A DNA stretch of 64,000 nucleotides, from NCBI GenBank assembly GCA_021786265.1, contig JAJYNP010000084.1, positions 15,857-79,856 of the forward strand, written 5' to 3'. The DNA comes from Chloroflexota bacterium. GTDB lineage: Bacteria > Chloroflexota > Limnocylindria > Limnocylindrales > CSP1-4. The notes under the pieces were generated by a model. That model ran no database searches, was not told the DNA's origin, and worked only from the letters and a program-made list of their open reading frames with translations. Each line of letters starts with the position of its first letter. The first letter of the stretch is position 1. Positions 50,179 to 63,994 of this stretch are shown here, piece by piece. Made by a program: the position numbers and the translations under genes.

Positions 50179-50318
50179 CGGGCCCTCCCTCCCCGGTGGC
50201 CCGGTCCCGGCCTCCCTCCGGTCCAGGTGCCGGCCGCCGCTGGCACGGATCGTGCGCGGCAGGCATGGCGCAGGTCAATACGCAGGATTACCTATCGGAG
50301 CGCGCGCCGGGTGCGCCC

Positions 50319-50588
50319 TCAGCCCAGCTCCACCGCGTCGATGACGCCCACCACCAGGGTGCGGACCGGCGCGGGCGACAGGCCGATGATCTGGCGGGCC
50401 GAGTTCCCCTCGTCGAGCAGCAGCACGGTCTCGCCCGCCCCGGCGCCCACCGTGTCGACCGCGATCAGGTAGCCGCCCGCCGGTGCGCCGTCGGGCTCGA
50501 GCAGATCGCAGAGCAGCAGCCGCCGCCCGTCGAAGGCGGGGGCGTGGATGGTCGAGACGACGGTCTGCGCGACGCGCCCGATCTTCAC
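50319..50588 (-). CDS. EutN/CcmL-type pentameric shell protein (BMC-P 3)
   Basis: An 89-residue vertex protein of a bacterial microcompartment. MKIGRVAQTVVSTIHAPAFD is the family start and VDTVGAGAGETVLLLDEGNS the conserved core, ending VVGVIDAVELG. Pentamers cap the vertices of the shell. A GTG start has GGAAGGG upstream. Last gene of the BMC operon; a fragment of the same sequence survives at 37697. Confidence 0.94.
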   Translation of the reverse strand: MKIGRVAQTVVSTIHAPAFDGRRLLLCDLLEPDGAPAGGYLIAVDTVGAGAGETVLLLDEGNSARQIIGLSPAPVRTLVVGVIDAVELG

Positions 50589-50636
50589 GGCGAGCCCTTC
50601 CGGCCAGTGTTCACGGCAGACCCCCGCGGCCGGGCG

Positions 50637-50933
50637 TCACGGCCGGCCCCCACGGCCCCGGAAGCCCACCGGCTCGACGGCGTCCACGATCCCGACGATC
50701 GCGTGGTCGACCGGCACGAACGTCTCCGGCAGCGCCTGCGCGGCCTCGCGGGCCGCCACGAAGTAGACCAGCTCCCCCGGCCCCGCCATGTGCACGGCAT
50801 CCGCCGCCACCAGCGGGCTGCCGGTCGGCTGCCGCTGCTTGTCCAGGGGCTGGATGATCAGGAGCTTGACCCCCTCGAGGCCGGGCGACTTGACGGTCGC
50901 GACGACGGTGCCGATGACCCGGGCGAGCTGCAT
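50637..50933 (-). CDS. EutN/CcmL-type pentameric shell protein (BMC-P 2)
   Basis: A 98-residue member of the EutN/CcmL family: MQLARVIGTVVATVKSPGLE, KLLIIQPLDKQRQPTG, AADAVHMAGPGELVYFVAAR and the closing AIVGIVDAVEP. The GSSAR turn of the other copies is replaced by REAAQALPE. It starts seven bases after the BMC-T gene. Confidence 0.93.
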   Translation of the reverse strand: MQLARVIGTVVATVKSPGLEGVKLLIIQPLDKQRQPTGSPLVAADAVHMAGPGELVYFVAAREAAQALPETFVPVDHAIVGIVDAVEPVGFRGRGGRP

Positions 50934-50939
50934 GCGGGG

Positions 50940-51653
50940 TCAGGCTCCCGTCCCCGGCTCGCGCGAGGTTGCCGGCCCCGCGGCGCCCGGACCGCCGCTC
51001 GGCGCCGCCTCCGACCCGGCCAGCCGGCGCACCCGCTCGCGGAAGCGCGCGTCTGCCTCGAGGTTCGTGCGCATCTCGGCGTGCAGCTGCGCGATCACGC
51101 GGTGTGCCGTCCCGGCCTTCGCCGCGATCCGCGCCGTGCCGAGCTCTACCGCGGTCTCCACCTCCGCCACGGGGCCGTCGAAGAGCAGGTAGCCCTTGCC
51201 GCCCAGGCCGTCGGCGAGCCGCAGCTCGAGCAGCCGGACCCGGGCGCCCTTCACCCCCGCATCCGCGGCGTCGATGATCGACGCGACCGTGGGGGTCTCG
51301 ATCACGCCGAGCGCCTCGCCGATCCCCTGCCGGCGCACTCCCCCGATGGCGGCCGAGACATCCGGGTGGACGTGCGGCAGAAAGACCAGGTCAAGCAGCG
51401 AGCCCGCCCCGCTCGCGCGGCCGGCCTCCAGCGCCTCCTCGACGTCGGCGACCGCGCCGCCCACCAGCACGAGGTAGCGGCCCGGGTGAACGGTCCCCGC
51501 ATGGAGCACCTCGATCGGGGCGCGCTTGGCCATGGCGTCGCCGGCCGCGATGCCGGCGGCGATCGAGTCGAACTCCAGCAGGCCGAGCGCGGGCTCCGGG
51601 ATCGACGGCACGTCCCGGCCCGCAGGATCGTCCCGGTCGGCGGCGCGGTTCAC
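50940..51653 (-). CDS. Tandem-domain trimeric shell protein (BMC-T 2)
   Basis: A 237-residue protein with two BMC folds: domain 1 PALGLLEFDSIAAGIAAGDA at residue 22, domain 2 ALGVIETPTVASIIDAADAG at about 115, closing with RVIAQLHAEM. Tandem BMC proteins form pseudo-hexameric trimers whose larger pores are thought to gate cofactors or metabolites. Codes for a 45-residue hydrophilic tail. The GTG lies just after the aldehyde dehydrogenase stop. Confidence 0.9.
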   Translation of the reverse strand: MNRAADRDDPAGRDVPSIPEPALGLLEFDSIAAGIAAGDAMAKRAPIEVLHAGTVHPGRYLVLVGGAVADVEEALEAGRASGAGSLLDLVFLPHVHPDVSAAIGGVRRQGIGEALGVIETPTVASIIDAADAGVKGARVRLLELRLADGLGGKGYLLFDGPVAEVETAVELGTARIAAKAGTAHRVIAQLHAEMRTNLEADARFRERVRRLAGSEAAPSGGPGAAGPATSREPGTGA

Positions 51654-51654
51654 C

Positions 51655-53112
51655 TCACACGATCCGCAGCGAGCCGACGACGGTGATGCGGCGCTCGCGC
51701 GAGAAGGTGCGCGGCCGCGTGAGGCCGTCGCCGGTCGGCGTGGCGATGGAGAAGGAGGCGAACCCCTGGCCGCCCTCCCCGAGCCCGGCGAAGTTCGGCC
51801 CGTTGGCCACGAAGATGCTGCAGTTCATCGCCCGCGCCATGCGGGTGATCGTCTCGACGTTGGTGGAGTGGATCGAGGCGGTGTGGCGGAAGCCGTGCTC
51901 GGCCCGAACCGCGAGCTCGATCGCCTGGTCGACCGTGCCGACCCGCACGATCGGCAGGACCGGCAGCATCTGCTCGGTCCAGACCAGGCTGTGATCCCGG
52001 GACACCTCGGCGATGGCCAGGCGGACGTCACGGCCGACCTGCACGCCGATCTCGGCGAGGATCTTCGCCGCGTCTTGCCCGATCCAGCGCGGGTTGATGA
52101 CCCCGTGCCTCCCCGGCGCGCCGAGCTCAGTGAAGATCGCCCGCTCGAGCCGGCGCAGCTCGTGTTCCTTGAGCAGGTAGGCGCCGTTCTGGGTCATGGC
52201 CCGCACGAGCCGGTCGGCGACCGAGTCGACGACGATGACCTCCTTCTCGTCGGTGCAGACCAGGTTGTTGTCGAAGGACGCGCCGCGCACGATGTCGCGG
52301 CCCGCCCGCTCGACGTCCGCGGTCTGGTCCACGACGGCCGGCGGGTTGCCGGGGCCGGCGGCCACCGCGCGCTTGTCGGTCCGCAGGGCCTCGCGCACCA
52401 CGGCCGGGCCGCCGGTGACGAGCAGGAGGCCGACGTCCGGGTGGTTCATCAGGGCCCGCGCGCTCTCGATGGTGGGCTCGGCGACCGCGGTGACCAGGTC
52501 GGCCGGCCCGCCCGCGGCGACGATGGCCCGGTTGATGAGCCGCACGGTCTCGGCCGAGCAGCGCTTCGCGCTGGGATGGACGTTGAAGACGACGGCGTTG
52601 CCCGCCGACACGATGCTGATGGTGTTGTTGATGACGGTCGAGGTGGGGTTGGTCACCGGGGTGATGGCCGCCACGACGCCGAACGGGGCGAACTCGGTGA
52701 CCATCATCCCCTGGTCGCCGGTCACCGCCTCGACCTCCAGGTCCTCGGGGCCGGGCGCCTTGGTGGTCACCACGCGGTTCTTGACGATCTTGTCCTCGAC
52801 CCGGCCGATCTTCGTCTCCTGGTGGGCCAGGAGCGCGAGCCGCTCCCCGGCGTCGAGCATCGCGCGCCGCACCGACTCGATGATCGCGTAGCGCCGGTCG
52901 AGCCCCATCGACCGGTACGCGCGGAAGGCCCGTCCGGCGGCGGCCACGGCATCGTCGACCGAAGCGTGGATGCCGTCGCCGAGCTCGGCCTGCCGGGCGA
53001 CCTCGGCCGCGGCGGCCATCGCGGCGCCCGGGCGCGCATCGCCCGCCTCCGACATCCGGCGCCGCACGCGCTCGATGATCGCCTGGATCTCGGGTTCGCT
53101 GAGCCCGCTCAT
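51655..53112 (-). CDS. CoA-acylating aldehyde dehydrogenase of the microcompartment
   Basis: A 485-residue PduP/EutE-type enzyme converting acetaldehyde (or another short aldehyde) with CoA and NAD+ to acyl-CoA. The catalytic Cys is in SFDNNLVCTDEKEVIV, with TPVTNPTSTVINN and VTGGPAVVREAL typical of the family. The first 20 residues (SGLSEPEIQAIIERVRRRM) form an amphipathic helix joined by a Gly/Ala-rich linker, an encapsulation-peptide layout. The start was chosen at 53112; an ATG 18 bases upstream is possible. Confidence 0.93.
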   Translation of the reverse strand: MSGLSEPEIQAIIERVRRRMSEAGDARPGAAMAAAAEVARQAELGDGIHASVDDAVAAAGRAFRAYRSMGLDRRYAIIESVRRAMLDAGERLALLAHQETKIGRVEDKIVKNRVVTTKAPGPEDLEVEAVTGDQGMMVTEFAPFGVVAAITPVTNPTSTVINNTISIVSAGNAVVFNVHPSAKRCSAETVRLINRAIVAAGGPADLVTAVAEPTIESARALMNHPDVGLLLVTGGPAVVREALRTDKRAVAAGPGNPPAVVDQTADVERAGRDIVRGASFDNNLVCTDEKEVIVVDSVADRLVRAMTQNGAYLLKEHELRRLERAIFTELGAPGRHGVINPRWIGQDAAKILAEIGVQVGRDVRLAIAEVSRDHSLVWTEQMLPVLPIVRVGTVDQAIELAVRAEHGFRHTASIHSTNVETITRMARAMNCSIFVANGPNFAGLGEGGQGFASFSIATPTGDGLTRPRTFSRERRITVVGSLRIV

Positions 53113-53176
53113 CGCACCACGCTCGCCCATGCTCCCGGTCGGACGCCGCGCCACCGCCCGGCGGCGGACGCGCGGC

Positions 53177-53464
53177 TCACTTGTGGAAGACCTCCCGCCC
53201 GCCGACCTCCCAGGTATCGACGATGGCCATGATGACCGCGTCGCACGGCCGGTCACGGGTCACCTCGGTCTGCCGCGCCGAGCTGCCGGTGGCGTAGAGG
53301 ACCACCTCGCCCACGCCCGCCCCGACCGCGTCGACCGCCACCACGTAGCCACCCACCTCGTGGTTGTCGGTGTCGAGCTGGCGCACGACGAGGAGCTTCC
53401 ACCCCTCCATCAGCGGCTCCTTGCGGCTGGCGACGACGGTGCCGGCCACACGTCCCAGTAGCAT
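53177..53464 (-). CDS. EutN/CcmL-type pentameric shell protein (BMC-P 1)
   Basis: A 95-residue vertex protein: [20 protein letters not shown], then [20 protein letters not shown] followed by [20 protein letters not shown]. It has the canonical GSSAR turn. It lies between BMC-H and the aldehyde dehydrogenase gene. Confidence 0.95.
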
Positions 53465-53551
53465 CCGCGCTCCTCCGTCCAGCGGCTCCGGATGGCAGGC
53501 CGCCGGGCTCCGGCCCGGTAGCCGGCCCCACCCGGTCCCGGTCGGGCCCGA

Positions 53552-53860
53552 TCAGCCCTCGCCCACCTCGGCGCGGGCCTCCTCGGCGCGACCGAGCGGC
53601 AGCACCAGGTCGATGTTGACGTGCGGCCGCGCGATCACGTGGCTGGCCACCACTTCGCCCACGTTCTGGGCGTTGCGCACGCCGGCTTCCACGGCGGCCT
53701 TCACCGCCGCGACGTCGCCGCGCACGACGGCCGTCACGTAGCCGCCCCCGGTCTTCTCGTAGCTCACGAGCTCGACCTTGGCGGCCTTCACCATCGCGTC
53801 GGCCGCCTCGACCATCGCCGCGAACCCGCGGGCCTCGATCATCCCAAGCGCTTCAGCCAT
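53552..53860 (-). CDS. Hexameric shell protein BMC-H (PduA/EutM/CcmK type)
   Basis: A 102-residue single BMC domain forming the facets of the shell. [20 protein letters not shown] is the family start, [20 protein letters not shown] contains the pore-lining GGG motif, and [17 protein letters not shown] the end of the fold. It is the only BMC-H in the locus, so facets must be built from one hexamer plus two BMC-T trimers. Confidence 0.96.
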
Positions 53861-53926
53861 CGATGCTCTCCTCTGTCGCTCCCTGCCGTGCCGTGTCCCG
53901 CCGCGGTCCCGCGGCCGCCATGCCTG

Positions 53927-54556
53927 CTATGCCTTTGCCTCGCGTCCCGTGAGCCCCTCGATCGCCGACAGCGCGGCCCGCCAGCCCACGTCGATGTCCC
54001 GCTCCTCGCCGCCCAGGTACACCCGGCCCATGGAACCGAAGGAGCGCACCTCCAGGATGTTGATCTCGGCCGCCTTCTCCGCCTCGTTCGCCGCCAGCGC
54101 GGCGTAGGCGGCGGGCTCGAGCTCGAGCACGTACAGCGTCTGGCCCCCGATCAGCATCTGCCCGTGCCGCGTCCGGTTGATGAGCTGCGCCTGGTGGTCG
54201 TCGATGCGGCGGATGATCTGGCTCGACAGCACGCGCGGCTTGATCCGGTCGCCCTCGGTGAGACCCACCGCCTCGAGGATCGCGGCCCCCGCCGCACGGA
54301 CCTCCGCCTGCGACGGCGCGTGAACCTCCAGCAGCCCGAAGTAGCGCTCGATGATCTGCATGCCCGGCTTCACCGCGGTCGCCTTGAGCGCCACGTCGGT
54401 CAGGCGGTTGATCTCGATGCCGGGCGAGACCTCCACGTACAGCGACGCGTCGCCGGCGAGCGGGAGGAAGCCCTGCGCCACGGTGCCCAGGAACGCCGCG
54501 TACTGCGCCTGGAGGCTGTCCAGGAAGACGTACGCGCGAAGGTCAATAGTGCTCAC
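53927..54556 (-). CDS. Tandem-domain trimeric shell protein (BMC-T 1)
   Basis: A 209-residue two-domain shell protein. The first half runs [20 protein letters not shown] to [20 protein letters not shown]; the second [20 protein letters not shown] to [19 protein letters not shown]. The order suggests the permuted BMC-T class whose trimers can stack. The GTG overlaps the deoC end by about 14 bases, with AGGGAGG upstream. Confidence 0.88.
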
Positions 54557-55415
54557 GGGCCTCCCTGCTCCCTCCGGTCACGATCTTCACGCCCGCGGAT
54601 GCCCCGATGCGGGTCGCCCCGGCGGCGATCATCTCCCGGACGTCCTCTGCCGTCCGGATCCCCCCGGCGGCCTTGACGCCCATCTTCGGCCCCACGGTCT
54701 CGCGCATCAGGGCGACGTCGTAGACGGTCGCACCGCCCGACGCATAACCCGTGGACGTCTTCACGAAGTCGGCGCGCGCCAGCTGCGCGAGGCGGCAGGC
54801 GATCACCTTCTCCTCGTCGGTCAGCAACGCGGCCTCGATGATGACCTTGTTGATCGCGCCCGCCTCGTGACACGCGTCGGAGACCCGCGCGATGTCCTCC
54901 CGCACGGCCTCGCGCATGCCGCTCTTGAGCGCGCCGATGTTGAGCACCATGTCGATCTCGCGGGCGCCGTCCCGCAGGGCGCGGCGCGCCTCGGTCGCCT
55001 TGACCTCGCTGGTCGACGCACCGAACGGGAACCCCACCACCGAGGCCACCGCCACCGGCGTGCCGCGCAGGACCGTGGCCGCGCGACGGATCCAGGTCGG
55101 GTTGATGCAGACGGCCGCGAAGCCGTACTCCTTCGCCTCGCCGCACAGGCGGTCGATGTCGCCGGCGGTGGCGTCGGGACGCAGCAGCGTGTGGTCGATG
55201 TAGCGGGCGAGATCGCGGGGCACGTCCGCGCCGTTCCCGTGGTAGGCGATGCGCTCGGCTCCCCCAGCCACCACGGTCCGCACCCTGTCCGGGCAGTGGG
55301 CGGCACAGGAGCCCAGGCAGTCCCGGCAGGCGTCGCCCGACGCGCCGGACAGCGCGGCGAGCACCTCGCGCGTGACCGCCTCGATCAGCCGGTCGCGGTC
55401 GAGTGCGCCGTTCAC
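54543..55415 (-). CDS. deoC: Deoxyribose-phosphate aldolase with encapsulation and Cys-rich N-terminus
   Basis: A 290-residue DERA that cleaves 2-deoxyribose-5-phosphate to acetaldehyde and glyceraldehyde-3-phosphate. [30 protein letters not shown] (Schiff-base Lys) and [11 protein letters not shown] give the active site. The N-terminus differs from ordinary DeoC (about 220 residues): an amphipathic helix [19 protein letters not shown] (candidate encapsulation peptide), then [12 protein letters not shown], four cysteines able to bind a cluster or zinc. The GTG overlaps the rpiB stop. Confidence 0.95.
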
Positions 55416-56017
55416 ACCCGGTCCCTCGAGTACCGCCGCTCGATCTCCGCGATCTTCTCGACGCGCGCGGCGTGACGCCCGGTGCCCCACGGGGTGCCCA
55501 GCCAGGCCTCCACGATCTCCATGGCCAGGCCGACCCCCACGTGTCGCGCGCCCAGGGTCAGCACGTTGGCGTGATTGTGCTCCCTACTGTTGCGCGCGGA
55601 GGTCACGTCGTGGCAGAGCGCCGCACGGACGCCGGGCACCTTGTTGGCGACCATGCACGAGCCGATCCCGGCCCCGTCGACGACGATGCCCCAGCGGCAG
55701 GTGCCGTCCGCGACGAGCCGGGCGACGGCATGGGCGAAGTCGGGGTAGTCGACGGGGTCGGCGGTCGCGGTGCCGCAGTCGTGGATCGTGTAGCCCTCCT
55801 CTCCGAGCCTCCGGCCGATCAGCTGCTTGAGCTCGAACCCCCCGTGGTCGGCACCGATGGCGATCGCGACCGGCGCCCCCGCGGATGCGGGGATCGCGGC
55901 GGTCGTGCCCTCGGTCGCGGCCGGGGCGCCAGTGGATGCCGGCTCCGCCCCGGCATCGTACATCGCGCCAACCACCCGGCGGACCACGTCGCGGACCTGG
56001 TCCTCGGAGACCGTCAC
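55412..56017 (-). CDS. rpiB: Ribose-5-phosphate isomerase B with encapsulation-type N-terminus
   Basis: A 201-residue RpiB/LacAB-family sugar-phosphate isomerase. [20 protein letters not shown] starts the fold near residue 50, and [20 protein letters not shown] with the catalytic Cys/[18 protein letters not shown] is conserved. The first 20 residues ([20 protein letters not shown]) are an amphipathic helix joined by an Ala/Thr/Pro linker. Ordinary RpiB is about 150 residues. Interconverts aldose and ketose phosphates feeding or leaving the compartment. Confidence 0.94.
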
Positions 56018-56080
56018 CTGTCGCCTCCCATCCGCGTCACGGTACGCGATGGGCCCAAGCGCTGCTCGCCGGTGTCGCGG

Positions 56081-56965
56081 CTACTCACTCCGGATCGCGC
56101 CAAACGAGAGCCCGCGTACCAGGTACCGCTGGAGCAGGAACGCGATGATCACCACGGGCAGCGCGCCCACGGCGGCCATGGCGGCGATGTCGCCCCACAG
56201 CACGTAGTGCGACTCCATCATCGTGGGCAGGATGAACGGGAGCGTCGTGACGCGGCCTCGCGATAGCAGAACGGCGATGCTGAACTCGTTCCAGTTGAAG
56301 ATGAACGCGAGCAGGGCCGTGGCCACCAGTGCGGGCCGGGCGTTCGGCAGCACCACGTCCCAGAACGCGCGCAGCCGGCTCGCGCCGTTGACCAGCGCCG
56401 ATTCCTCGCGGTCGACCGGCAGGTCCTCGAAGAAGCCTTTCATGACCCACGCGACGAACGGGATGGTGAACGTCAGGTACTGCACCACCAGGGCGATGTA
56501 CGTGTCGACGAGCCCGAGGGCGGACCAGAAGAGGAACATCGGGATCCCGATGGCGACCGGTGGCATGAAGAGCAGACTGAGGATGAAGAACGACAGGTTC
56601 GTGCCGCCGATGCGGAAGCGCGCCAGGGCGTACGCCGCCAGCGTCCCCAGCACCATGCCGATCGCCGTGGCGCTGACCGCGACGATTCCACTGTCGACCA
56701 AGCCCTTGAGGCCACCCCAGTTGAACAAGGCGTCCGTGTAGTTCTGGAAGTAGAGCCGGTCAGGAATGAAGACCGGCGGGTTTGTGAGCCACTCGCTCGG
56801 CGGCTTCACGGACGTGACGAGCATCCAGTAGATGGGGAACAGGAAGAAGACGAGCCCGATCGCCACGCCCACGATGGACGCCCAGAGGCCTGTCCGGCCG
56901 CGGGTCACCCTCCGCTGCACCGCGTGCCCCGTCGGCGTCGGAGATGTCACCGCCGCACGGCTCAT
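56081..56965 (-). CDS. Sugar ABC transporter permease (MalG/UgpE type)
   Basis: A 294-residue carbohydrate-uptake (CUT1) permease with six helices. The EAA loop ESALVNGASRLRAFWDVVLP is near residue 200; IPMFLFWSALGLVDTYIALV and the FNWNEFSIAVLL segment are typical. Start overlaps the partner permease by ATGA. The cognate sugar is inferred to be the microcompartment's substrate. Confidence 0.93.
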   Translation of the reverse strand: MSRAAVTSPTPTGHAVQRRVTRGRTGLWASIVGVAIGLVFFLFPIYWMLVTSVKPPSEWLTNPPVFIPDRLYFQNYTDALFNWGGLKGLVDSGIVAVSATAIGMVLGTLAAYALARFRIGGTNLSFFILSLLFMPPVAIGIPMFLFWSALGLVDTYIALVVQYLTFTIPFVAWVMKGFFEDLPVDREESALVNGASRLRAFWDVVLPNARPALVATALLAFIFNWNEFSIAVLLSRGRVTTLPFILPTMMESHYVLWGDIAAMAAVGALPVVIIAFLLQRYLVRGLSFGAIRSE

Positions 56966-57897
56966 ACCGCCGCCCCGACGGTCGCCGTGGAAGCGGCGGC
57001 ACGGCCGACCGGTCGCTCCATGTACCCCAGGATCACGCGGGCCAGCACGATCACCAGAATCACACTGACGTACGACATGGCCGCGCTGTAGCCAACACTG
57101 AAGTATCGGAACCCTTGCACATAGTTGTAGAAGGCGAGGCTCTCGGTCGCCGACCCGGGGCCTCCGGCCGTGAGCACGTAGATGATGTCGAACACTTTGA
57201 ACGCGCCGATGAGGCGCAGGATCACCGTGATGGCGATCACGCGCCGCAGCAGCGGCAGCGTCTGGTAGCGCAGCAGCTGCCATCCGGTCGACCCATCCAC
57301 CCGCGCCGCCTCGAAGACCGGCGCCGGGAGCGCGTGGAGCCCTGCCAGCAGGAGAAGCGTCACGAACGGCGTCCATTGCCAGAAGTCCACGAGGAGCAGC
57401 GACGGCAAGGCCAGTCGTGGGTCGGCGGTCCAGGTAAGGAGCGGAAGGTGCAGCGCGCCGAGGAAGAAGTTGAGTGGGCCCGAGCTGTAGTCGAACAGCG
57501 AGCGCCACTGGAACGAGGCGACCGACGACGAGATGATGCTGGGGATGAGCAGCAGGGTTGCGAGGAACTGCTGGTAGCGCGGCAGCCGGTGGAGCGCGAG
57601 CGCCAGCGCCAACCCGACCCCCAGTTGTACGGTCACGACGGAGGCCGCGAAAGCGGCGGTGACCAGCAGGCTGCTCCAGAACAGGTTGTCCTGGAGCAGC
57701 TCGGCATAGTTGGCGAGCCCAACGAACCGGGCCGGCACGAGCGAAAGCAGCTGTTGGTCAGTGAATGAAAGTCGCAGCGAGTAGAGCAGCGGGAAGATGC
57801 TCAGGGCGACCAGAATGACGGTCGCGGGCAGAACGGCCAGGAGGGCGAAGCGCCGCCCTCCCGACCAGCGCGCACGGCGACGCGCGATTGCTGTCAT
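56962..57897 (-). CDS. Sugar ABC transporter permease (MalF/UgpA type)
   Basis: A 311-residue CUT1 permease with six helices. FPLLYSLRLSFTDQQLLSLV opens the first periplasmic region; the EAA loop is FEAARVDGSTGWQLLRYQTL. ATG 57897 is preferred over the in-frame GTG at 57918. It lies between the binding protein gene and the second permease. Confidence 0.92.
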   Translation of the reverse strand: MTAIARRRARWSGGRRFALLAVLPATVILVALSIFPLLYSLRLSFTDQQLLSLVPARFVGLANYAELLQDNLFWSSLLVTAAFAASVVTVQLGVGLALALALHRLPRYQQFLATLLLIPSIISSSVASFQWRSLFDYSSGPLNFFLGALHLPLLTWTADPRLALPSLLLVDFWQWTPFVTLLLLAGLHALPAPVFEAARVDGSTGWQLLRYQTLPLLRRVIAITVILRLIGAFKVFDIIYVLTAGGPGSATESLAFYNYVQGFRYFSVGYSAAMSYVSVILVIVLARVILGYMERPVGRAAASTATVGAAV

Positions 57898-57936
57898 CGG
57901 AACGCCACCATGCGCCACCGTGACCGGCGCCCCTGC

Positions 57937-59346
57937 TCAGTAACTCACGCCTGCGGCGTGGAAGCTGTTGACCCAGTCACCGTAGGCCTTGACCTGGTTG
58001 TCCTGACCAAGCGACGAGGTGATGCTGTCCCACTCGTTGGCGGCCTGAGTGAGGGCCTGGGACGGCGTCAGGCTCCCCGCCAGCGCTTCGCTCACGAACA
58101 GGTCCAGGATATCCAGGTACCTGGGAGCGCCGGGGATCGACAGTTCGGGGTACCCGGTGGTGAGACACGTCTTGATGGCGGAGACGTAGCTCTGCGCCTG
58201 CGCCGCTGGCATGGACGGATTGCCAAGGTGGTCCTTGACCTTGGTCGGGTCCAGGTGCGACTGCCGGAAGGGATCCTCGCCACACTTCGGGTCGTAGACG
58301 TCCTTGATGCTGACGTCGGCGCTGTCCATGTACTGGATGACCTTGTAGGCGTTCGCCTGGTTCTTGGAGAACGCGGACACGGCCATCACGCGCGAGTACG
58401 GCATGTAGTTACGGACCGGACACGGCGCGTAGGCGTTCTTGCCCACGACCTTGCTCTGGCTCGGGTCCTCCGCCTTCAGCGCCAGGTCGTCCCATTGCAC
58501 GACCATCGCAGTCGACCCGTTCAGGTACGCTTCGTTCAGTTCCTGGTAGCCGATCTGCAGGATGTTCGGCGGGGCGTACTGCGCGAGGGTAACCAGCGTC
58601 TGGAGGGCCTGGACACCCTGATCGGTATTGATGGCGGGCTTCATGTCGGTGGTGAACCACTTCCCACCGAGGGCGGCGAAGATGTTCATGAACCACGCGT
58701 AGCAGAAGCCCCGCTGCGCGAGGAACGCGTTGCCGTACTGGGTGGGCGGCTTGTGCAACTCCTTCGCGATGTTGACGAAGTCGTCCCATGTCTGCGGCGG
58801 CTGGCTGATGCCCGCGGCCTGGAATACGTCGGTGCGGTAGGCGATCTGAAGGATGTCTCCGTCGTATGCGGCCGCGTAGAGCTTGCCATTGCGGCGCAGG
58901 TTCGGGTCGCGGTAGGCCGGCAGTACGTCGCTCAGATTGAAGTCGGACTCGCTTCCGAGTTCCGAGAGCGGGGTCAGGAACCCGTTGCTGACGAAGTCGC
59001 CGATCATCTGGGGTGGGAACACCAGCACGTCGTAGATGCTGCTGCGTGTCACCATCTCGGCGACGATCTTCTCGTACTGCCCCACGAACGGCAGGCCGAT
59101 GATGTTCGTGGTTGCCCCGAACTTTGTCTTCATGTCCGGGTTGAACCACTGGAACGGGCTAGCGTTCTGGCCCTCGTCGATCTCGATGGCCACCGTGCCC
59201 GATGCACTGGCAGCCGCGCCGGACGCATTGGGCGTCGCCGAGCAGGCCTCGAGGAACGACGTGATCGCGCCGCCCATGGCAATGGCGGCGCCCGCCTTGG
59301 CGGTGCCGCTCAGGAACCGACGTCGACTGATCGGACGAACTTGCAT
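57937..59346 (-). CDS. Extracellular sugar-binding lipoprotein (CUT1)
   Basis: A 469-residue family 1 extracellular solute-binding protein. A Tat signal (RRRFLSGTAKAGAAIAMGG) ends in lipobox LEAC near residue 34. VQWDDLALKAEDPS, GKLYAAAYDGDILQIAYRTD and PQTWDDFVNIAKEL are typical of CUT1 binding proteins. It is the substrate-capturing component for the two permeases downstream. Confidence 0.92.
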   Translation of the reverse strand: MQVRPISRRRFLSGTAKAGAAIAMGGAITSFLEACSATPNASGAAASASGTVAIEIDEGQNASPFQWFNPDMKTKFGATTNIIGLPFVGQYEKIVAEMVTRSSIYDVLVFPPQMIGDFVSNGFLTPLSELGSESDFNLSDVLPAYRDPNLRRNGKLYAAAYDGDILQIAYRTDVFQAAGISQPPQTWDDFVNIAKELHKPPTQYGNAFLAQRGFCYAWFMNIFAALGGKWFTTDMKPAINTDQGVQALQTLVTLAQYAPPNILQIGYQELNEAYLNGSTAMVVQWDDLALKAEDPSQSKVVGKNAYAPCPVRNYMPYSRVMAVSAFSKNQANAYKVIQYMDSADVSIKDVYDPKCGEDPFRQSHLDPTKVKDHLGNPSMPAAQAQSYVSAIKTCLTTGYPELSIPGAPRYLDILDLFVSEALAGSLTPSQALTQAANEWDSITSSLGQDNQVKAYGDWVNSFHAAGVSY

Positions 59347-59372
59347 TGTCGTGACCCTCCTCCGGACACGAT

Positions 59373-60467
59373 TCAGGCTATGCGGGTACCCCCGTCCGAA
59401 CCCGGCGCGAAGAAGTGGAGCGTTTCGGGCCTCAATTCCAGGTGCACCTCCTCGCCCTCGTTCAAGCGGAGCTCCGGCTCGGACTCGACCGTTAGCCGCT
59501 CACCCGCGATCTGGAACTGATAGATCACGCGGGATCCTTCCGGCGCGGCCAGGTACACGGCGGCGTCGACGCGGCCCTCTCCGGCGCTGCGGTGGATCCG
59601 GATCGCCCGCGGCCGAACGCCCACGACCACGTTGGGCTGGGTCGCCGTGCTCAGCAGCCCGCTCGCGGCTTCCGTCACCGCGAGCCGGTGCCCGAGGGCG
59701 CGGACGCCAAGCTGGCCGTCGCTGCGTTCGAGGGTCGCCGGCAGCAGGTTCATCTGCGGCTCGCCGATGAACCGCGCCACGAACGTGTTGCTTGGCACGT
59801 CATACACGTCGTCGGGCGTGCCCAACTGCTGGACCACGCCGTCCTTCATGATCGCGATCAGGTCGGCCATCGCGAGGGCGTCCAGTTGATCGTGGCTGAC
59901 CACCACGGTCGTCGTACCCAGCATCTTCTGGAGACGACGGATCTCGGCGCGCATGGTGCTCCGCAGTACGGCGTCGAGATTGGAGATCGGCTCGTCAAGC
60001 AGGAACAGACGCGGCCGCTGGATGATCGCCCGCGCGAGCGCGACCCGTTGTTGCTGGCCCCCGGATATCTGCTGCACGCCTCGACCCAGCAGTCCGTCGA
60101 TCTCGAGCAGGCGTGCTACATCCGCAACTCTGGTGTCTCGCTCGGCCCGGGGCGTGCCCCGCACCTTGAGGGGGTACGCAATGTTGTCCAGGACAGACAT
60201 CTGCGGGTACAGCGCGTACCCCTGGAACATCACGCCGACGTGACGGTCTCTGGGTTCGAGGCTCGAGATCTCGTCCTCGTCCAGCCATATCTCGCCGCCA
60301 TCAGGCCGCTCAAGCCCGGCCATGAGGCGCAGGGTCGTGGTCTTGCCACTGCCTGACGGTCCGAGAAGGCAGAGCAGTGTACCGTCGGGGATCTCGAGCG
60401 ACAGGTCTCGGACGGCTACCACCGCCCCGAACGACCTCGAGAGATGCTTCAGCGTGACGCGGGACAC
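59373..60467 (-). CDS. Sugar ABC transporter ATP-binding protein (UgpC/MalK type)
   Basis: A 364-residue CUT1 ATPase. LLGPSGSGKTTTLRLMAGLE is Walker A, ISGGQQQRVALARAI the signature, LFLLDEPISNLDA Walker B and VVVSHD the H-loop; the C-terminal TOBE/OB domain (GVRPRAIRIHRS) is present. The GTG start has GGAG six bases upstream. It is the first gene of the transport operon, 26 bases after an inverted-repeat operator. Confidence 0.94.
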   Translation of the reverse strand: MSRVTLKHLSRSFGAVVAVRDLSLEIPDGTLLCLLGPSGSGKTTTLRLMAGLERPDGGEIWLDEDEISSLEPRDRHVGVMFQGYALYPQMSVLDNIAYPLKVRGTPRAERDTRVADVARLLEIDGLLGRGVQQISGGQQQRVALARAIIQRPRLFLLDEPISNLDAVLRSTMRAEIRRLQKMLGTTTVVVSHDQLDALAMADLIAIMKDGVVQQLGTPDDVYDVPSNTFVARFIGEPQMNLLPATLERSDGQLGVRALGHRLAVTEAASGLLSTATQPNVVVGVRPRAIRIHRSAGEGRVDAAVYLAAPEGSRVIYQFQIAGERLTVESEPELRLNEGEEVHLELRPETLHFFAPGSDGGTRIA

Positions 60468-60491
60468 TCGTCACTCCTCTCGCAGCCGGAT

Positions 60492-60520
60492 GTGAGATCG
60501 ATTACCCATATCGATTTCAC
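60492..60520 (-). promoter_or_regulatory. LacI-type operator before the transport/BMC operon
   Basis: GTGAGATCGAT (60492-60502) and ATCGATTTCAC (60510-60520) form an inverted repeat with one mismatch in 11 and a seven-base spacer. Each half centres on ATCGAT, the CpG-centred core typical of LacI-family sites. It lies 25 bases before the ATPase gene. TTGACG at about 60540 (minus strand) is a possible -35. The half-site GTGAAATCG recurs in the lacI leader. Confidence 0.65.
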
Positions 60521-60573
60521 TTCGCCATCCTATCCCGGTCGTCAAGCGCGGCCGGCGATTGCAGACTGGTTTC

Positions 60574-61512
60574 TTAGGGTTGCTGTTCGTGCGATCCCAG
60601 GAACGTTTCAAGTTCCTCGCGAAGCGGAAACGAGACCTGGGTTCCGATGCGAGTGACCGACAATGCGGCGGCGGCACCAGCCCGGCGCACCGCCTCCGCC
60701 ATCGAGCTGCCTTCGGCCAGGAACACCGCCAGCGCCCCGATGAACTCGTCTCCCGCTCCTGTCGGATCCACGGCATCCACCGGCACCGCTGGCACGTGGT
60801 GGCTCGCGCCGTCACTCACGATGAGCGAGCCACGGCTCCCCAGAGTGACGATTACGTCGCGGGGCCCTCGCGCGCGAAGGACCTGCGCGGCACGCTCGGC
60901 GTCCTCGATCGTCTGCGCGGAGTGGCCCGTGAGCATCTGGATCTCGACCTCGTTCGGCACGCAGATGTCGGTGATAGACAGGAGCTCGTCCGGCAACGGT
61001 GCTGCCGGAGCGGGGTTCAGGATTGTCGTGACGCCCGCGTCACGCGCGATGCGAAGCGCCTCCAGGGTCGCCTCCACGGGGACCTCGAGCTGACAGCAGA
61101 GGATGTCCGCCTGGCCGATCTCGGCGCGGGCAGCGCGGACGTCGTCGGGCGTGAGGCCCAAGTTCGCTCCTGGAACAATGACGATCACGTTCGCGGCGTG
61201 GTCGTCCACGAAGATCGGCGCAACACCCGAGAACCGCTCGCGGTCCACCAGCACGAACCGGCTGTCGATGCCATGAGAGCGGAAGTTCTCAACGGTCCCT
61301 TCGCCGAAGACGTCGTCGCCGACCCTGGCAACCATCGACACCCGTGCGCCGAGCCTGGCTGCTGCCGTGGCCTGGTTCGCGCCTTTCCCGCCGTATCCCA
61401 TGTGGAAGGAGTGCCCCATCAGCGTCTCCCCGAGCGTCGGTAGCCGCGGGACTCGTGAGATCAGGTCGATCATGCAGCTGCCGACGACGCAGATGCGCGG
61501 CTGGCTCGCCAT
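60574..61512 (-). CDS. Ribokinase-family (PfkB) sugar kinase
   Basis: A 312-residue PfkB kinase. GYGGKGANQATAAARLGARV is the N-terminal sugar-binding signature and VDPTGAGDEFIGALAVFLAE the ATP-site signature with catalytic Asp. The nearest relatives are ribokinase and deoxyribokinase; in front of rpiB and deoC it should phosphorylate ribose, deoxyribose or a similar pentose. ATG 61512 is chosen over an in-frame GTG at 61524. It runs with EthD and lacI genes. Confidence 0.9.
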   Translation of the reverse strand: MASQPRICVVGSCMIDLISRVPRLPTLGETLMGHSFHMGYGGKGANQATAAARLGARVSMVARVGDDVFGEGTVENFRSHGIDSRFVLVDRERFSGVAPIFVDDHAANVIVIVPGANLGLTPDDVRAARAEIGQADILCCQLEVPVEATLEALRIARDAGVTTILNPAPAAPLPDELLSITDICVPNEVEIQMLTGHSAQTIEDAERAAQVLRARGPRDVIVTLGSRGSLIVSDGASHHVPAVPVDAVDPTGAGDEFIGALAVFLAEGSSMAEAVRRAGAAAALSVTRIGTQVSFPLREELETFLGSHEQQP

Positions 61513-61560
61513 GGGACCCCTCACCTCGCGATCATGTCGATGGGCGCACGGGCCGCCCCG

Positions 61561-61905
61561 TCAGGCGGCGTCCACAGGACCCGGAATGACGATGTGTTCC
61601 TCGGTATACACGTGGACCCTGACCTCGGCGAACTGGTCGGCGTCGGCGCCTGCGGCGACCCCGATCGCGCTCTCGAAGGAGGCCTCCATGGCGTCGATGC
61701 TTTCCCACCACATCTCGGCCGTGCCGTCGTAGATCGGCTCCGCCTCCGAGCCCGCAGGCTGGCGGGCGGTGGAGATGTTGATCCGGTAGGCGAGCAGTCC
61801 CGGAAGCCGCCTCGAGATCTGCGTGTGCTCCTCTAACCAGCGCCGCTCGAACTCCTGGGGCGTCAGGTGCGGCTTCCGCTTCAGCAACGCAATCAGCTTG
61901 ATCAT
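61561..61905 (-). CDS. EthD-family ferredoxin-like protein
   Basis: A 114-residue dimeric alpha-beta barrel protein. MIKLIALLKRKPHLTPQEFE followed by RRWLEEHTQISRRLPGLLAY is the EthD signature. Related folds include sugar mutarotases and small monooxygenase/decarboxylases. In this operon a mutarotase-like or accessory role for the imported sugar is possible but speculative. Confidence 0.85.
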   Translation of the reverse strand: MIKLIALLKRKPHLTPQEFERRWLEEHTQISRRLPGLLAYRINISTARQPAGSEAEPIYDGTAEMWWESIDAMEASFESAIGVAAGADADQFAEVRVHVYTEEHIVIPGPVDAA

Positions 61906-61938
61906 CGTGTGCCTCCAGACGTGCCAGGCCCGATCGGG

Positions 61939-63081
61939 TCACGGTGTCCCGGTCGCCGCCGTTTCGTGCGCCGTGTCGGGATCGCCTGCGATCCGGCGGG
62001 CCGTCGCCCCGGTTGACGGCGCCGGTCCACCCGCCAGGGACGGTTCAGCCGGCGGGCCCGCGCACGACCCTCGCACGGTCAGTCGGGTTTCGAGCACGAT
62101 CTTCCGGGGCGCGGCCTCCGCGGTGTCCTCCATCCGGAACTTCAGGAGGCGCATCGCGAGGACGCCCTGCTCTGTGCTCGGGCGTGAGATCACCGTCAGG
62201 GGCGGGGAGGTGAGCTCGGCCAAGGCGAGATCGTCGAAGCCTACAAACGACATCTCCCTGGGAATACGGATACCCAGGTTGTGAATGGCGCGGAGGGCGC
62301 CGATCGACATCAGATTGTTCGAGACGAACAGCGCGGTCGGCGCCGGGCGCACGGCCAGCAGGCGCAGAGCGGCTTGGTAGCCGCCGTCCTCGCGGAAATC
62401 CGCCACCTCCAGGTAGCGCTCATCGAGGTCGTGGCCCGTGGCCCGCAGCCCCTGGAGAAACCCCTCGTACCGCTCCCGGCCCGGCGTGGTGTCGAGCGGG
62501 CCCGAGATCATCGCGATCTGCTCATGGCCCAGCGAGACCAGGTACTCCGCCGCCTGCGCAGCTCCGTTGACGTTGTCCACGAGCACGACGTCGAAATCTT
62601 CGGCCTCGATCCGCCGATCGATGAGCACGACCGGGACGCGGCGCGCACGGAGCATGAGCGGCGCGTCCGACCACTCCGTCGCGGGGGCCATGAGGATCCC
62701 GTCGACCTGCTTCTGGAGCAGGAGGCTGATGACCGTCCTCTCCCGCTCGATGTTCTCGTCAGTGTTGCAGAGCAGCAGACTGTACTCGCCGGCCCGCATG
62801 ACGGACTCGACGCCCTTCACGACATCCGCGAAGAACGGGTTCGAGATGTCCGGCACGAGCACGCCGATGGTTCGCGTGGAGCCCGACTTCAGGCTCCGGG
62901 CGAGCTGGTTCGGCCGGAAGGTGAGCGCCTCGATAGCTTCGCCTATGCGCTGCGCCTGCCGCACCCGGTTGCCGTTGAGGTACCGGGACACCGTGGCGGT
63001 CGAGACGCCTGCTCGGGCCGCGACGTCTTTAATCGTGGCCGGTTTGTGAGCCGTGGGCCGTGTGACTGGTACCGATTTCAC
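61939..63081 (-). CDS. LacI-family transcriptional regulator
   Basis: A 380-residue repressor. The HTH TIKDVAARAGVSTATVSRYL begins near residue 16, followed by the hinge RPNQLARSLKSGSTRTIGVL and a sugar-binding core (VPDISNPFFADVVKGVESVM, MSFVGFDDLALAELTSPPLT). The GTG start at 63081 is inferred from a leaderless -10. It presumably represses this operon until its sugar or sugar phosphate binds. Ends with a Pro/Ala-rich 45-residue tail. Confidence 0.93.
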   Translation of the reverse strand: MKSVPVTRPTAHKPATIKDVAARAGVSTATVSRYLNGNRVRQAQRIGEAIEALTFRPNQLARSLKSGSTRTIGVLVPDISNPFFADVVKGVESVMRAGEYSLLLCNTDENIERERTVISLLLQKQVDGILMAPATEWSDAPLMLRARRVPVVLIDRRIEAEDFDVVLVDNVNGAAQAAEYLVSLGHEQIAMISGPLDTTPGRERYEGFLQGLRATGHDLDERYLEVADFREDGGYQAALRLLAVRPAPTALFVSNNLMSIGALRAIHNLGIRIPREMSFVGFDDLALAELTSPPLTVISRPSTEQGVLAMRLLKFRMEDTAEAAPRKIVLETRLTVRGSCAGPPAEPSLAGGPAPSTGATARRIAGDPDTAHETAATGTP

Positions 63082-63094
63082 TGGATGAATGGTA
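63067..63094 (-). promoter_or_regulatory. Leaderless lacI promoter with operator half-site
   Basis: TACCAT (63094-63089, minus strand) stands seven bases before the GTG at 63081. GTGAAATCG, the operator half-site of 60492-60520, begins at the GTG itself (63081-63073), followed by the palindrome GGTACC. This fits autoregulation of lacI. Confidence 0.5.
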
Positions 63095-63175
63095 GCGGGC
63101 CCCGTCAAGGTGCCGCGCGCCGATTTCGCCCGGCCATCGTCCGGCCGATCGCATCTCCGTGATGCCGCCGCGCCG

Positions 63176-63994
63176 TCATGCCACCGTGATGGTGCCTTCC
63201 ATGTAGCCGCTCTGCGCCGCCATGGCGCCGCCCCACCCGCTGGAGCCGCTGCCGCAGGGGTCCATGCAGTGCCAGGCGTACGTGCCCGGCGCGCCGGTGC
63301 GGACCGTGAAGGTCACCCGCGCGAACGGCGCGGTCGGCACGTTCAGCCCGAGGCCGGGAGCCGTCAGCGTGTGCGCCACGTCCGCCGGATCCAGGGAGGT
63401 GTGGGTCGTGGTCGGCCCGGCCGCTGCGTTCGGGGTCTTCGGGTCGATCGGCGTCACGGTGAAGGTGTCACCCACGATCCCCCTGGCATGGGCATAGACC
63501 TGCAGCGCCGCCGGGAGCAGCGTGGCGCTATCGAAGTCCGTCACGGTGACCACGACCGTCGAGTACGCGGGCAGCACGAAGGAGGAGGGAATGTACGCCG
63601 GGTAGTCCTTCCTCCCTATCATGTCGCCGGTCACGATCGTGAGGTACACGTGCGGGGTGCCCGCTGCGGCGGCGGCGGACGCGGCGGTGGCGGACGAGGC
63701 GCCGCCGATCGTGGACGGGGCCCCGGTGGTGGCGGACGAGGCCGCGGTGCCGGTCGACGCGAGCGTGCCCGAGGCACCGAGCGAAGCCGGGCGGGCCACG
63801 GCCCGGACCGCGGCCACGGCACGGGCCACGGGGACCGCCACGGCCGTCACCGGCCCGGGGAGGGCGCGGCCGGCGGCCGATTCCGTCCACGCCGGCCGCG
63901 TCGCCGTGCCGGCGCAGCCCGTGGCGAGCGCCGCCACGGCGACGCCGCCGAGGGTACGGAGAAACAGGGAGCGGGTGGGACGCTGCCGGGACAT
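63176..63994 (-). CDS. Cupredoxin-like lipoprotein
   Basis: A 272-residue exported protein with lipobox ATGC near residue 27 and a long Ala/Ser/Thr linker (to about 110), then a cupredoxin-type beta domain: HVYLTIVTGDM, VVVTVTDFDSATL and TYAWHCMDPCGSG with a late GYMEGTITV. The H-C-x3-C-x-M pattern suggests a copper site related to CuA or sulfocyanin-like proteins. Its leader (RPAWTESAAGRALPGPVT) parallels the NirK leader. Electron donor or copper carrier is inferred. Confidence 0.7.
   Translation of the reverse strand: MSRQRPTRSLFLRTLGGVAVAALATGCAGTATRPAWTESAAGRALPGPVTAVAVPVARAVAAVRAVARPASLGASGTLASTGTAASSATTGAPSTIGGASSATAASAAAAAGTPHVYLTIVTGDMIGRKDYPAYIPSSFVLPAYSTVVVTVTDFDSATLLPAALQVYAHARGIVGDTFTVTPIDPKTPNAAAGPTTTHTSLDPADVAHTLTAPGLGLNVPTAPFARVTFTVRTGAPGTYAWHCMDPCGSGSSGWGGAMAAQSGYMEGTITVA

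Follow-up and report, generated by a model that had tools for sequence, protein, structure and literature searches.

A sugar phosphate utilization microcompartment locus in a Chloroflexota genome and its RpiB-family protein with aspartate for the catalytic cysteine

Described systems and the Chloroflexota locus

Bacterial microcompartments (BMCs) of the sugar phosphate utilization (SPU) type have been described by Axen 2014 (PMC4207490) and Sutter 2021 (PMC8217296), which are cited here, like all published work below, from excerpts. SPU loci combine a DeoC-type aldolase, an RpiB-family protein and an acylating aldehyde dehydrogenase with a shell of BMC-H, BMC-T proteins that include a CcmP-like double-stacking trimer, and three BMC-P. 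The same components are found in a locus at 50319-63108 on the minus strand of a 64,000-nt stretch from a Chloroflexota bacterium. This whole stretch is called the window, and all positions are counted within it. The locus consists of sixteen consecutive genes, defined as open reading frames and assigned to families by Pfam and NCBIfam profiles. In contrast to the published loci, the window locus adds a CUT1 importer, a PfkB kinase, an EthD protein and a LacI regulator in one gene run, and it has no PduL. A sequence-only reading had counted fifteen genes here, although its own list adds up to sixteen; every gene family that it named was recovered on the minus strand. The shell set that it gave, one BMC-H, two BMC-T and three BMC-P, is borne out by matches to PF00936, PF03319 and NF053796. 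Its assignment to the SPU class agrees with the presence of DeoC, the RpiB-family protein, the acylating aldehyde dehydrogenase and the shell in conserved order. Judged by its gene families, this core is the published SPU type. CcmP-like trimers go with SPU2, SPU3, MIC3 and the Haliangium ochraceum (HO) type (Sutter 2021, PMC8217296), and the one encoded here suggests SPU2 or SPU3.

The deoK operon of some E. coli also bears comparison. It encodes a DeoR-type regulator, a kinase, a FucP-like permease and an aldose 1-epimerase. It resembles the window locus in a kinase and DeoC route for deoxyribose and in a mutarotase-type gene within the run. It differs in having no microcompartment, another permease and regulator, and no adjacent acylating aldehyde dehydrogenase. 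In E. coli, DeoC is encoded away from this operon. The HO microcompartment shares the BMC-P triplet and a related BMC-T with the window locus (Sutter 2021). Three regions from the Acidobacteriota sample (L201, L205, L210) carry DeoC and shell genes with no RpiB match and may be of the HO kind; they differ from the window locus in that no RpiB-family cargo was found.

The SPU core recurs widely among relatives. A scan of contigs with an RpiB alignment (patterns ARNSREHN and DGAGIGSC) gave at least 550 relatives, of which the best 80 loci were compared; this set is biased toward Asp, as one pattern contains the Asp motif discussed below. The 80 loci are titled Chloroflexota, Actinomycetota and Acidobacteriota. 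A further phylum, suggested by the title Deltaproteobacteria of one locus (L055), was rejected, as its phylum sample is that of a Thermoanaerobaculia genome, and the locus was counted there. Among the matches listed, the closest by RpiB identity are the Chloroflexota loci L001 (91%), L002 (81%) and L003 (79%). Shell genes were matched in 71 of the 80 loci, and DeoC lies no more than 3 kb from RpiB in 76. All nine core genes are present in 39, in the window's order every time (39/39), and contig ends cut many of the others. BMC-P genes are present without an aldehyde dehydrogenase match in L059, L062, L071 and L074. L059 comes from Bellilinea caldifistulae, a cultured relative, and carries RpiB, DeoC and three BMC-P genes next to one another, with no match to aldehyde dehydrogenase or BMC-H in its 20.6 kb. 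Nine loci have no shell matches (L001, L020, L036, L038, L052, L057, L060, L065, L073); eight of these break off within 1.5 kb past RpiB, L060 being the sole exception. The Asp-type RpiB of L060 (8780-9424) has neither shell genes nor DeoC nearby, and BMC-P is found on other contigs of that genome.

One genome of the Chloroflexota sample (G263) carries all sixteen genes in a 12.9-kb segment that aligns to 50298-63125 of the window at 81% nucleotide identity. The locus is therefore no chance arrangement. Identity by gene is 94.6% for the aldehyde dehydrogenase, 92.8% for the binding protein, 77.4% for the kinase, 76.5% for RpiB and 74.6% for EthD. Some SPU loci hold further genes. A second, dissimilar DeoC stands behind the SPU genes of two Chloroflexota loci (L006, 15638-16429; L009, 16791-17576). 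In Anaerolineae SPU loci, an inorganic pyrophosphatase (L070, 12968-13531) and a metallo-beta-lactamase-fold protein (L058, 5331-6053) are encoded among or next to the shell genes. Of the matches listed from the open-licence PubMed Central literature, none was an experimental study of an SPU microcompartment.

Aspartate in place of the catalytic cysteine of RpiB

In ribose-5-phosphate isomerase B of E. coli, Cys66 acts as the base in the proton shift from C2 to C1, and His99 is credited with ring opening (PMC4783025, PMC3755991). A Thr shuttles the proton between O2 and O1, and replacement of the Cys (C69S, C69A) abolishes activity (PMC4783025). In LacAB, T67A lowers activity about 20-fold (PMC3755991). 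The Mycobacterium tuberculosis (Mtb) enzyme uses a carboxylate base, Glu75, which acts from a different position (PMC4783025). The RpiB-family protein of the window shares the fold, the ring-opening His (here His147) and the phosphate site with the enzymes of E. coli, T. cruzi and C. thermocellum, and it is 52% identical to the last of these in a Foldseek alignment. It differs from them in an N-terminal helix and linker, in Asp (Asp114) at the position of the catalytic Cys66, and in Ala at the neighbouring Thr. The position of the Mtb Glu (72) is taken by Ser, so that neither catalytic base of EC 5.3.1.6 (Cys66 or the Mtb-type Glu75) is present. The AlphaFold2 model has the RpiB fold, with a helix at 5-21, a low-confidence stretch at 23-45 and a mean predicted local distance difference test score (pLDDT) of 73.8. 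The sequence-only reading had treated the protein as a working ribose-5-phosphate isomerase. It is not readable as such because the catalytic Cys is Asp; on its residues, the SPU RpiB is no ordinary ribose-5-phosphate isomerase.

This substitution seems to be general for the SPU loci sampled. The 120 top homologues of the window RpiB all have Asp at Cys66. Across the 80 loci, position 66 is Asp and position 72 is Ser without exception, the Thr is Ala in 79 and Val in one, and His99, Asn100, Arg133, His134 and Arg137 are invariant. RpiB copies from elsewhere in the same genomes present a different picture. At least one further PF02502 match is carried by 27 of 30 genomes, and the 31 readable copies found elsewhere in the 30 genomes have Cys in 28 cases and Gly in three (with Glu at the Mtb position), never Asp. 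Four second RpiB copies that lie on SPU contigs all have Cys. In this set three fragments (L037, L015, L145) are unreadable at the catalytic position and two weak matches (L143, L144) were not recovered; near-identical rows were dropped, leaving 117 of 149.

Two sets are independent of the Asp motif. The first was picked by shell gene only, by hand, from genomes with BMC-P in the Chloroflexota (18 of 23), Actinomycetota (17 of 50) and Acidobacteriota (39 of 106) samples, where the phylum label of a sample is that of its central record. Four further Chloroflexota-sample genomes with BMC-P were already covered by the loci, one region (L207, 100 bases) was unusable, and some genomes may be shared with the 80 loci (L150 and L018 look alike). 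In the 79 usable regions, the RpiB of the SPU locus has Asp in 24 of 24 cases, and five second copies on the opposite strand all have Cys. The second set was gathered with a distant seed (L217). Asp is found in 116 of its 120 members, and the four with Cys all lack the N-terminal extension, which exceeds 15 residues in 113 of the 116 Asp-type proteins. His99, His134 and Arg137 are kept in all 120 and Arg133 in 119.

In an alignment of 143 sequences, the 102 rows with Asp form one clade, with support of 100/99 when 45 of the 102 are used. The remaining 41 rows, of which 38 have Cys and 3 have Gly, comprise E. coli RpiB together with copies from outside the SPU core. A tree built without the motif columns and with all 102 Asp rows still has a single change, with support of 79. 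His99, Asn100, Asp9, His10, Asp42 and Arg133 are invariant in the 102 rows; as the group is defined by its Asp, its uniformity there (102 of 102) tests nothing. One Asp-type protein of 280 residues (P0272) has no N-terminal extension and carries about 130 extra residues, probably at its C-terminus. Among the matches listed from the open-licence PubMed Central literature, read as excerpts, no report of the Cys-to-Asp change in SPU RpiB was found.

A proposed pathway and its alternatives

The locus probably encodes an SPU microcompartment that breaks down 2-deoxyribose 5-phosphate (dR5P), fed in this genome by its own importer and kinase. The CUT1 importer would take in a pentose, of which free 2-deoxyribose is the likeliest, for the PfkB kinase to convert to the 5-phosphate in the cytosol. 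Following Sutter 2021, the gated CcmP-like trimer may then let the sugar phosphate into the shell. Inside the shell, DeoC would cleave it and the CoA-acylating dehydrogenase would convert acetaldehyde to acetyl-CoA. This order of import, phosphorylation, aldol cleavage and oxidation had already been put forward, and at the level of gene families it is supported. The aldehyde dehydrogenase has an N-terminal extension, with its start taken at ATG 53112, and its catalytic Cys aligns with that of 5jfl. In DeoC, the regions of the Schiff-base Lys, a second Lys and an Asp, which we take to be the catalytic residues of deoxyribose-phosphate aldolase (DERA), align with solved DERA structures. RpiB and DeoC both carry N-terminal extensions. 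A helical-moment test was rejected as proof of encapsulation peptides, since the kinase control scored equally high. The linker that joins the aldolase domain of DeoC to its N-terminal helix holds a CX2CX3CX3C cluster; four Cys in this linker were considered as a general SPU trait and rejected, since they occur in 31 of 96 SPU DeoCs, 24 of them as CX2CX3CX3C.

The RpiB-family cargo may have a part in this pathway that is not isomerization. A sugar without a hydroxyl at C2, such as dR5P, cannot undergo aldose-ketose isomerization. Because of this, and because the residues of isomerase chemistry are lost and those for phosphate binding and ring opening are kept, ring opening is proposed: the cargo would open the furanose ring of dR5P for DeoC, with the Asp near O1 as base and the His as acid. 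The Asp is placed near O1 because Cys65 of LacB lies 3.3 A from O1 (PMC3755991). The SPU RpiB might thus be a re-purposed enzyme in which a carboxylate has replaced the thiol next to O1, an 'openase' that hands open-chain dR5P to DeoC within the shell. We offer this proposal tentatively and would place the odds somewhat against it, both for ring opening as the task of the cargo and for the re-purposed enzyme as such. It is known that 99.8% of dR5P is furanose and that DERA acts on the aldehyde (PMC5975929). A DeoC-RpiB fusion occurs in Marinimicrobia (PMC4207490). YhcH supplies an aldolase with its substrate in the open form (PMC8141875), a helper function that is demonstrated for YhcH and proposed for the window RpiB. 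In contrast to the SPU cargo, YhcH is an unrelated cytosolic Zn protein (DUF386) that acts on another sugar, with N-acetylneuraminate aldolase as its partner (PMC8141875).

The kinase and the aldolase bear on the identity of the imported sugar. DeoC is the only aldolase in the locus, which favours deoxyribose. The kinase has Met at Asn14 of E. coli RbsK, Pro at 99 and Gly at 252, matching E. coli DeoK. The DeoK reference, labelled rbsK in its own record, is presumed to be DeoK, in keeping with its neighbours, a DeoR-type regulator, a FucP-like permease and an aldose 1-epimerase. In E. coli colonies selected on deoxyribose, a change at RbsK position 14 was found in 15 of the 16 that were sequenced (PMC6452873). 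Because of the aldolase, we lean toward deoxyribose rather than ribose. In other SPU loci, different genes that could supply the substrate adjoin the core: L007 has a SorC-type regulator with a pyrimidine-nucleoside phosphorylase, and L009 two PNP_UDP_1 proteins with BPD_transp_2 permeases. The SorC-type regulator directly upstream of RpiB belongs to a family (f9) found in six loci by clustering, of which the L007 member was checked. These suppliers are consistent with DNA-derived deoxyribose as a common input.

The importer-kinase block was followed through its EthD gene, which belongs to a small subfamily (261 relatives found). EthD was matched in 21 of 177 genomes of the class of G263, seven of which reach at least 66% identity, and all seven (G263, G168, G003, G973, G975, G1019, G1020) were inspected. 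EthD adjoins the kinase in each, and DeoC is present in each. In G168, RpiB and the beginning of DeoC come after the block before the contig ends, and in G003 the contig ends with the block itself. No SPU gene follows it in G973. A variant block order, in which the ATPase match was not found, is seen in G1019, G1020 and G975. BMC-P was matched in six of the seven genomes, the match in G168 being a 35-residue fragment, compared with 23 of 301 genomes of the phylum sample (Fisher p 1.4e-6 with three shared genomes removed from the background, or 4.7e-5 with G168 scored negative; both uncorrected for kinship and against the phylum rather than the class). The block-bearing genomes and BMC-P shell genes are strongly associated. 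This association, together with the absence of the block from all 80 loci, makes the block an accessory that travels with SPU and no fixed part of it. The locus had been called self-contained, which is right only in part: the importer and kinase do lie in the same gene run, but the block is an accessory, being found in none of the 80 loci and on another contig in three genomes.

Several observations weigh against the proposed pathway. Matches to the kinase, the binding protein and EthD are missing from all 80 loci, 44 of which extend 5 kb or more upstream of RpiB, and the block and the shell genes are on separate contigs in G973, G975 and G1019. Importers of the CUT1 type are not known as the usual route for ribose. 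In overall identity the kinase is slightly nearer to ribokinase (45% to RbsK) than to deoxyribokinase (41% to DeoK), and human ribokinase shares the Met that corresponds to Asn14. In the helical-moment test, the N-termini of the cargo could not be told apart from the kinase control. In the RpiB family, Thr or Ser is retained at position 68 in 13 of the 120 proteins of the L217 set (the Cys-type making up four of the 120), and position 101 varies, which detracts from a fully clean picture. Ring opening of dR5P was not rate-limiting according to the DERA study (PMC5975929). The Asp could also be the base at C2 in a modified isomerase.

In a fuller form of this last point, the cargo is still an aldose-ketose isomerase with an Asp base that acts on ribose 5-phosphate alongside DeoC, and the importer and kinase serve ribose. 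Axen 2014 and Sutter 2021 interpret RpiB in this way, and membership of the RpiB family and the conserved phosphate site agree with it, as does the working carboxylate of Mtb RpiB, Glu75, although it acts from another position (PMC4783025). The kinase exceeds the ribokinase cut-off of TIGR02152, and the regulator is RbsR-like, although its score for RbsR, its top NCBIfam model, is 269 bits against a cut-off of 531. Against an isomerase stand the change of Cys to Asp in 80 of 80 loci, with the shuttling Thr changed to Ala or Val in the same loci, the further RpiB copies without Asp in most of the genomes, and the lack of any enzyme for a ketose product in the locus. We consider such an isomerase rather unlikely.

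The importer-kinase block could instead be a chance neighbour that serves ordinary ribose metabolism and has no part in the microcompartment. This would agree with its separation from the shell genes in three genomes, with its presence in G1020, where BMC-P is not detectable, and with its absence from the 80 loci. The block is nevertheless linked to RpiB and DeoC in the window, G263 and G168, and shell genes were matched in six of the seven block-bearing genomes, once as a fragment, so that a chance neighbour is improbable.

Two further alternatives concern the cargo. Loss of the catalytic base would also be expected of a catalytically dead scaffold or a sugar-phosphate sensor in the shell. 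The invariance of His99, Asn100, Arg133, His134 and Arg137 in the 80 loci, and of Asp9, His10 and Asp42 in the 102 rows, suggests that chemistry has been kept, and a dead protein is distinctly improbable. The pocket Asp, His and Asn also resemble what we take to be the Glu, His and Asn of triose-phosphate isomerase. Such an isomerase, with a carboxylate base acting on the aldol product so that dihydroxyacetone phosphate exits the shell, is the least probable alternative: an Atribacteria SPU locus does encode triose-phosphate isomerase (PMC4207490), and triose-phosphate conversion may therefore matter, but that locus type also has RpiB according to Axen, and a phosphate site spaced for a pentose would leave the Asp too far from C1 and C2 of a triose.

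Returning to the dR5P pathway, the recycling of its cofactors may follow another scheme than that of a complete metabolosome core; PduL and alcohol dehydrogenase are absent from the sixteen genes. That no phosphotransacylase, alcohol dehydrogenase or acetate kinase is encoded among them had been stated before and is correct. PduL is missing in 24 of 26 relative genomes and found in two, once as a fragment. Acetate kinase is present in 11 of the 26. PTA_PTB matches occur in 15, with a clear Pta (at least 347 bits) in five (G013, G015, G019, G021, G022). The matches of nine genomes, at 23-41 bits, were not accepted as Pta, and G028 is a doubtful case, with six weaker pieces of up to 155 bits.

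Gene arrangement, flanks and significance

The sixteen genes are listed in Table 1. The lower end of the locus is 50319, and the upper end is 63081 or 63108 depending on the start codon taken for LacI. With the start codons chosen, the spacing between genes ranges from -14 to +106 nt and includes three overlaps. RpiB and DeoC overlap by 4 nt (GTGA), and permease 2, with an ATG start at 56965, overlaps permease 1 by 4 nt. A promoter and terminator scan of the locus found no sigma-70-like promoter, and terminator-like sites were at chance level (4, compared with 2.9 +/- 1.7 in shuffles). It is plausible from this arrangement that all sixteen genes are on one transcript. The EthD protein was considered as a relative of rhamnose mutarotase (RhaM), and this was rejected: the top folds for its AlphaFold2 model (pLDDT 92) are BH0200 and methylmuconolactone methylisomerase, and RhaM is absent from the best 50 of 101 matches (E <=0.001).

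Table 1. Genes of the SPU locus in the window, in gene order, with the profile matches that support them
Feature	Position	Strand	Evidence
LacI-family regulator, RbsR/CytR-like	61939..63108	-	PF00356 + Peripla_BP_3; possible GTG start 63081
EthD/TIGR02118 dimeric alpha-beta barrel protein	61561..61905	-	PF07110
PfkB sugar kinase, ribokinase family, deoxyribose or ribose (predicted)	60574..61524	-	TIGR02152 368 bits, above cut-off
ATP-binding cassette (ABC) importer ATPase, UgpC/MalK-like, CUT1	59373..60467	-	PF00005 + OB_MalK + TOBE_2
Extracellular solute-binding protein (SBP_bac_1)	57937..59346	-	PF01547
ABC permease 1, GlcT-like	56962..57918	-	PF00528
ABC permease 2, GlcU-like	56081..56965	-	PF00528
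RpiB-family protein, SPU type, Asp for catalytic Cys	55412..56017	-	PF02502 179 bits
DeoC deoxyribose-phosphate aldolase, N-terminal extension	54543..55415	-	PF01791; TIGR00126 277 bits, cut-off 117
BMC-T double-stacking (CcmP-like) shell trimer	53927..54556	-	NF053796 343 bits, cut-off 340; Pfam BMC 21.8 bits, under its 24.5 cut-off
BMC-H shell hexamer	53552..53860	-	PF00936 104 bits
BMC-P shell pentamer 1	53177..53464	-	PF03319 101 bits
CoA-acylating aldehyde dehydrogenase (PduP/EutE type)	51655..53112	-	NF011927 622 bits, above cut-off
BMC-T (PduT-like) shell trimer	50940..51653	-	PF00936 two stretches; TIGR02526 93 bits, cut-off 250
BMC-P shell pentamer 2	50637..50933	-	PF03319 94 bits
BMC-P shell pentamer 3	50319..50588	-	PF03319 83 bits

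An RHS/YD-repeat protein (46015-50178) adjoins the locus. Comparison with 47.9 kb of the G263 contig gave no nucleotide match for the part of the window from 37.8 to 50.3 kb, in which this gene lies. The RHS stretch may have been inserted in the window, because the G263 contig is syntenic on both sides and has no match to it. Upstream of LacI, 63176-63994 encodes a secreted protein with a weak resemblance to CoxB (19.9 bits for TIGR02866, under the cut-off), and the nucleotide similarity to G263 ends before this gene.

In summary, the microcompartment type is already known and little studied, and the Cys-to-Asp point in its RpiB is new. In every sample taken, the change of the catalytic base goes with the microcompartment copies, which turns the role of this enzyme into a question for the bench. 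The linked importer and kinase suggest a concrete growth substrate. The usual model of CoA recycling does not cover this branch, in which PduL is lacking in 24 of 26 genomes. If the openase proposal were true, the RpiB fold would gain a new activity, and the packing of an 'isomerase' in a pathway for a C2-deoxy sugar would be explained.

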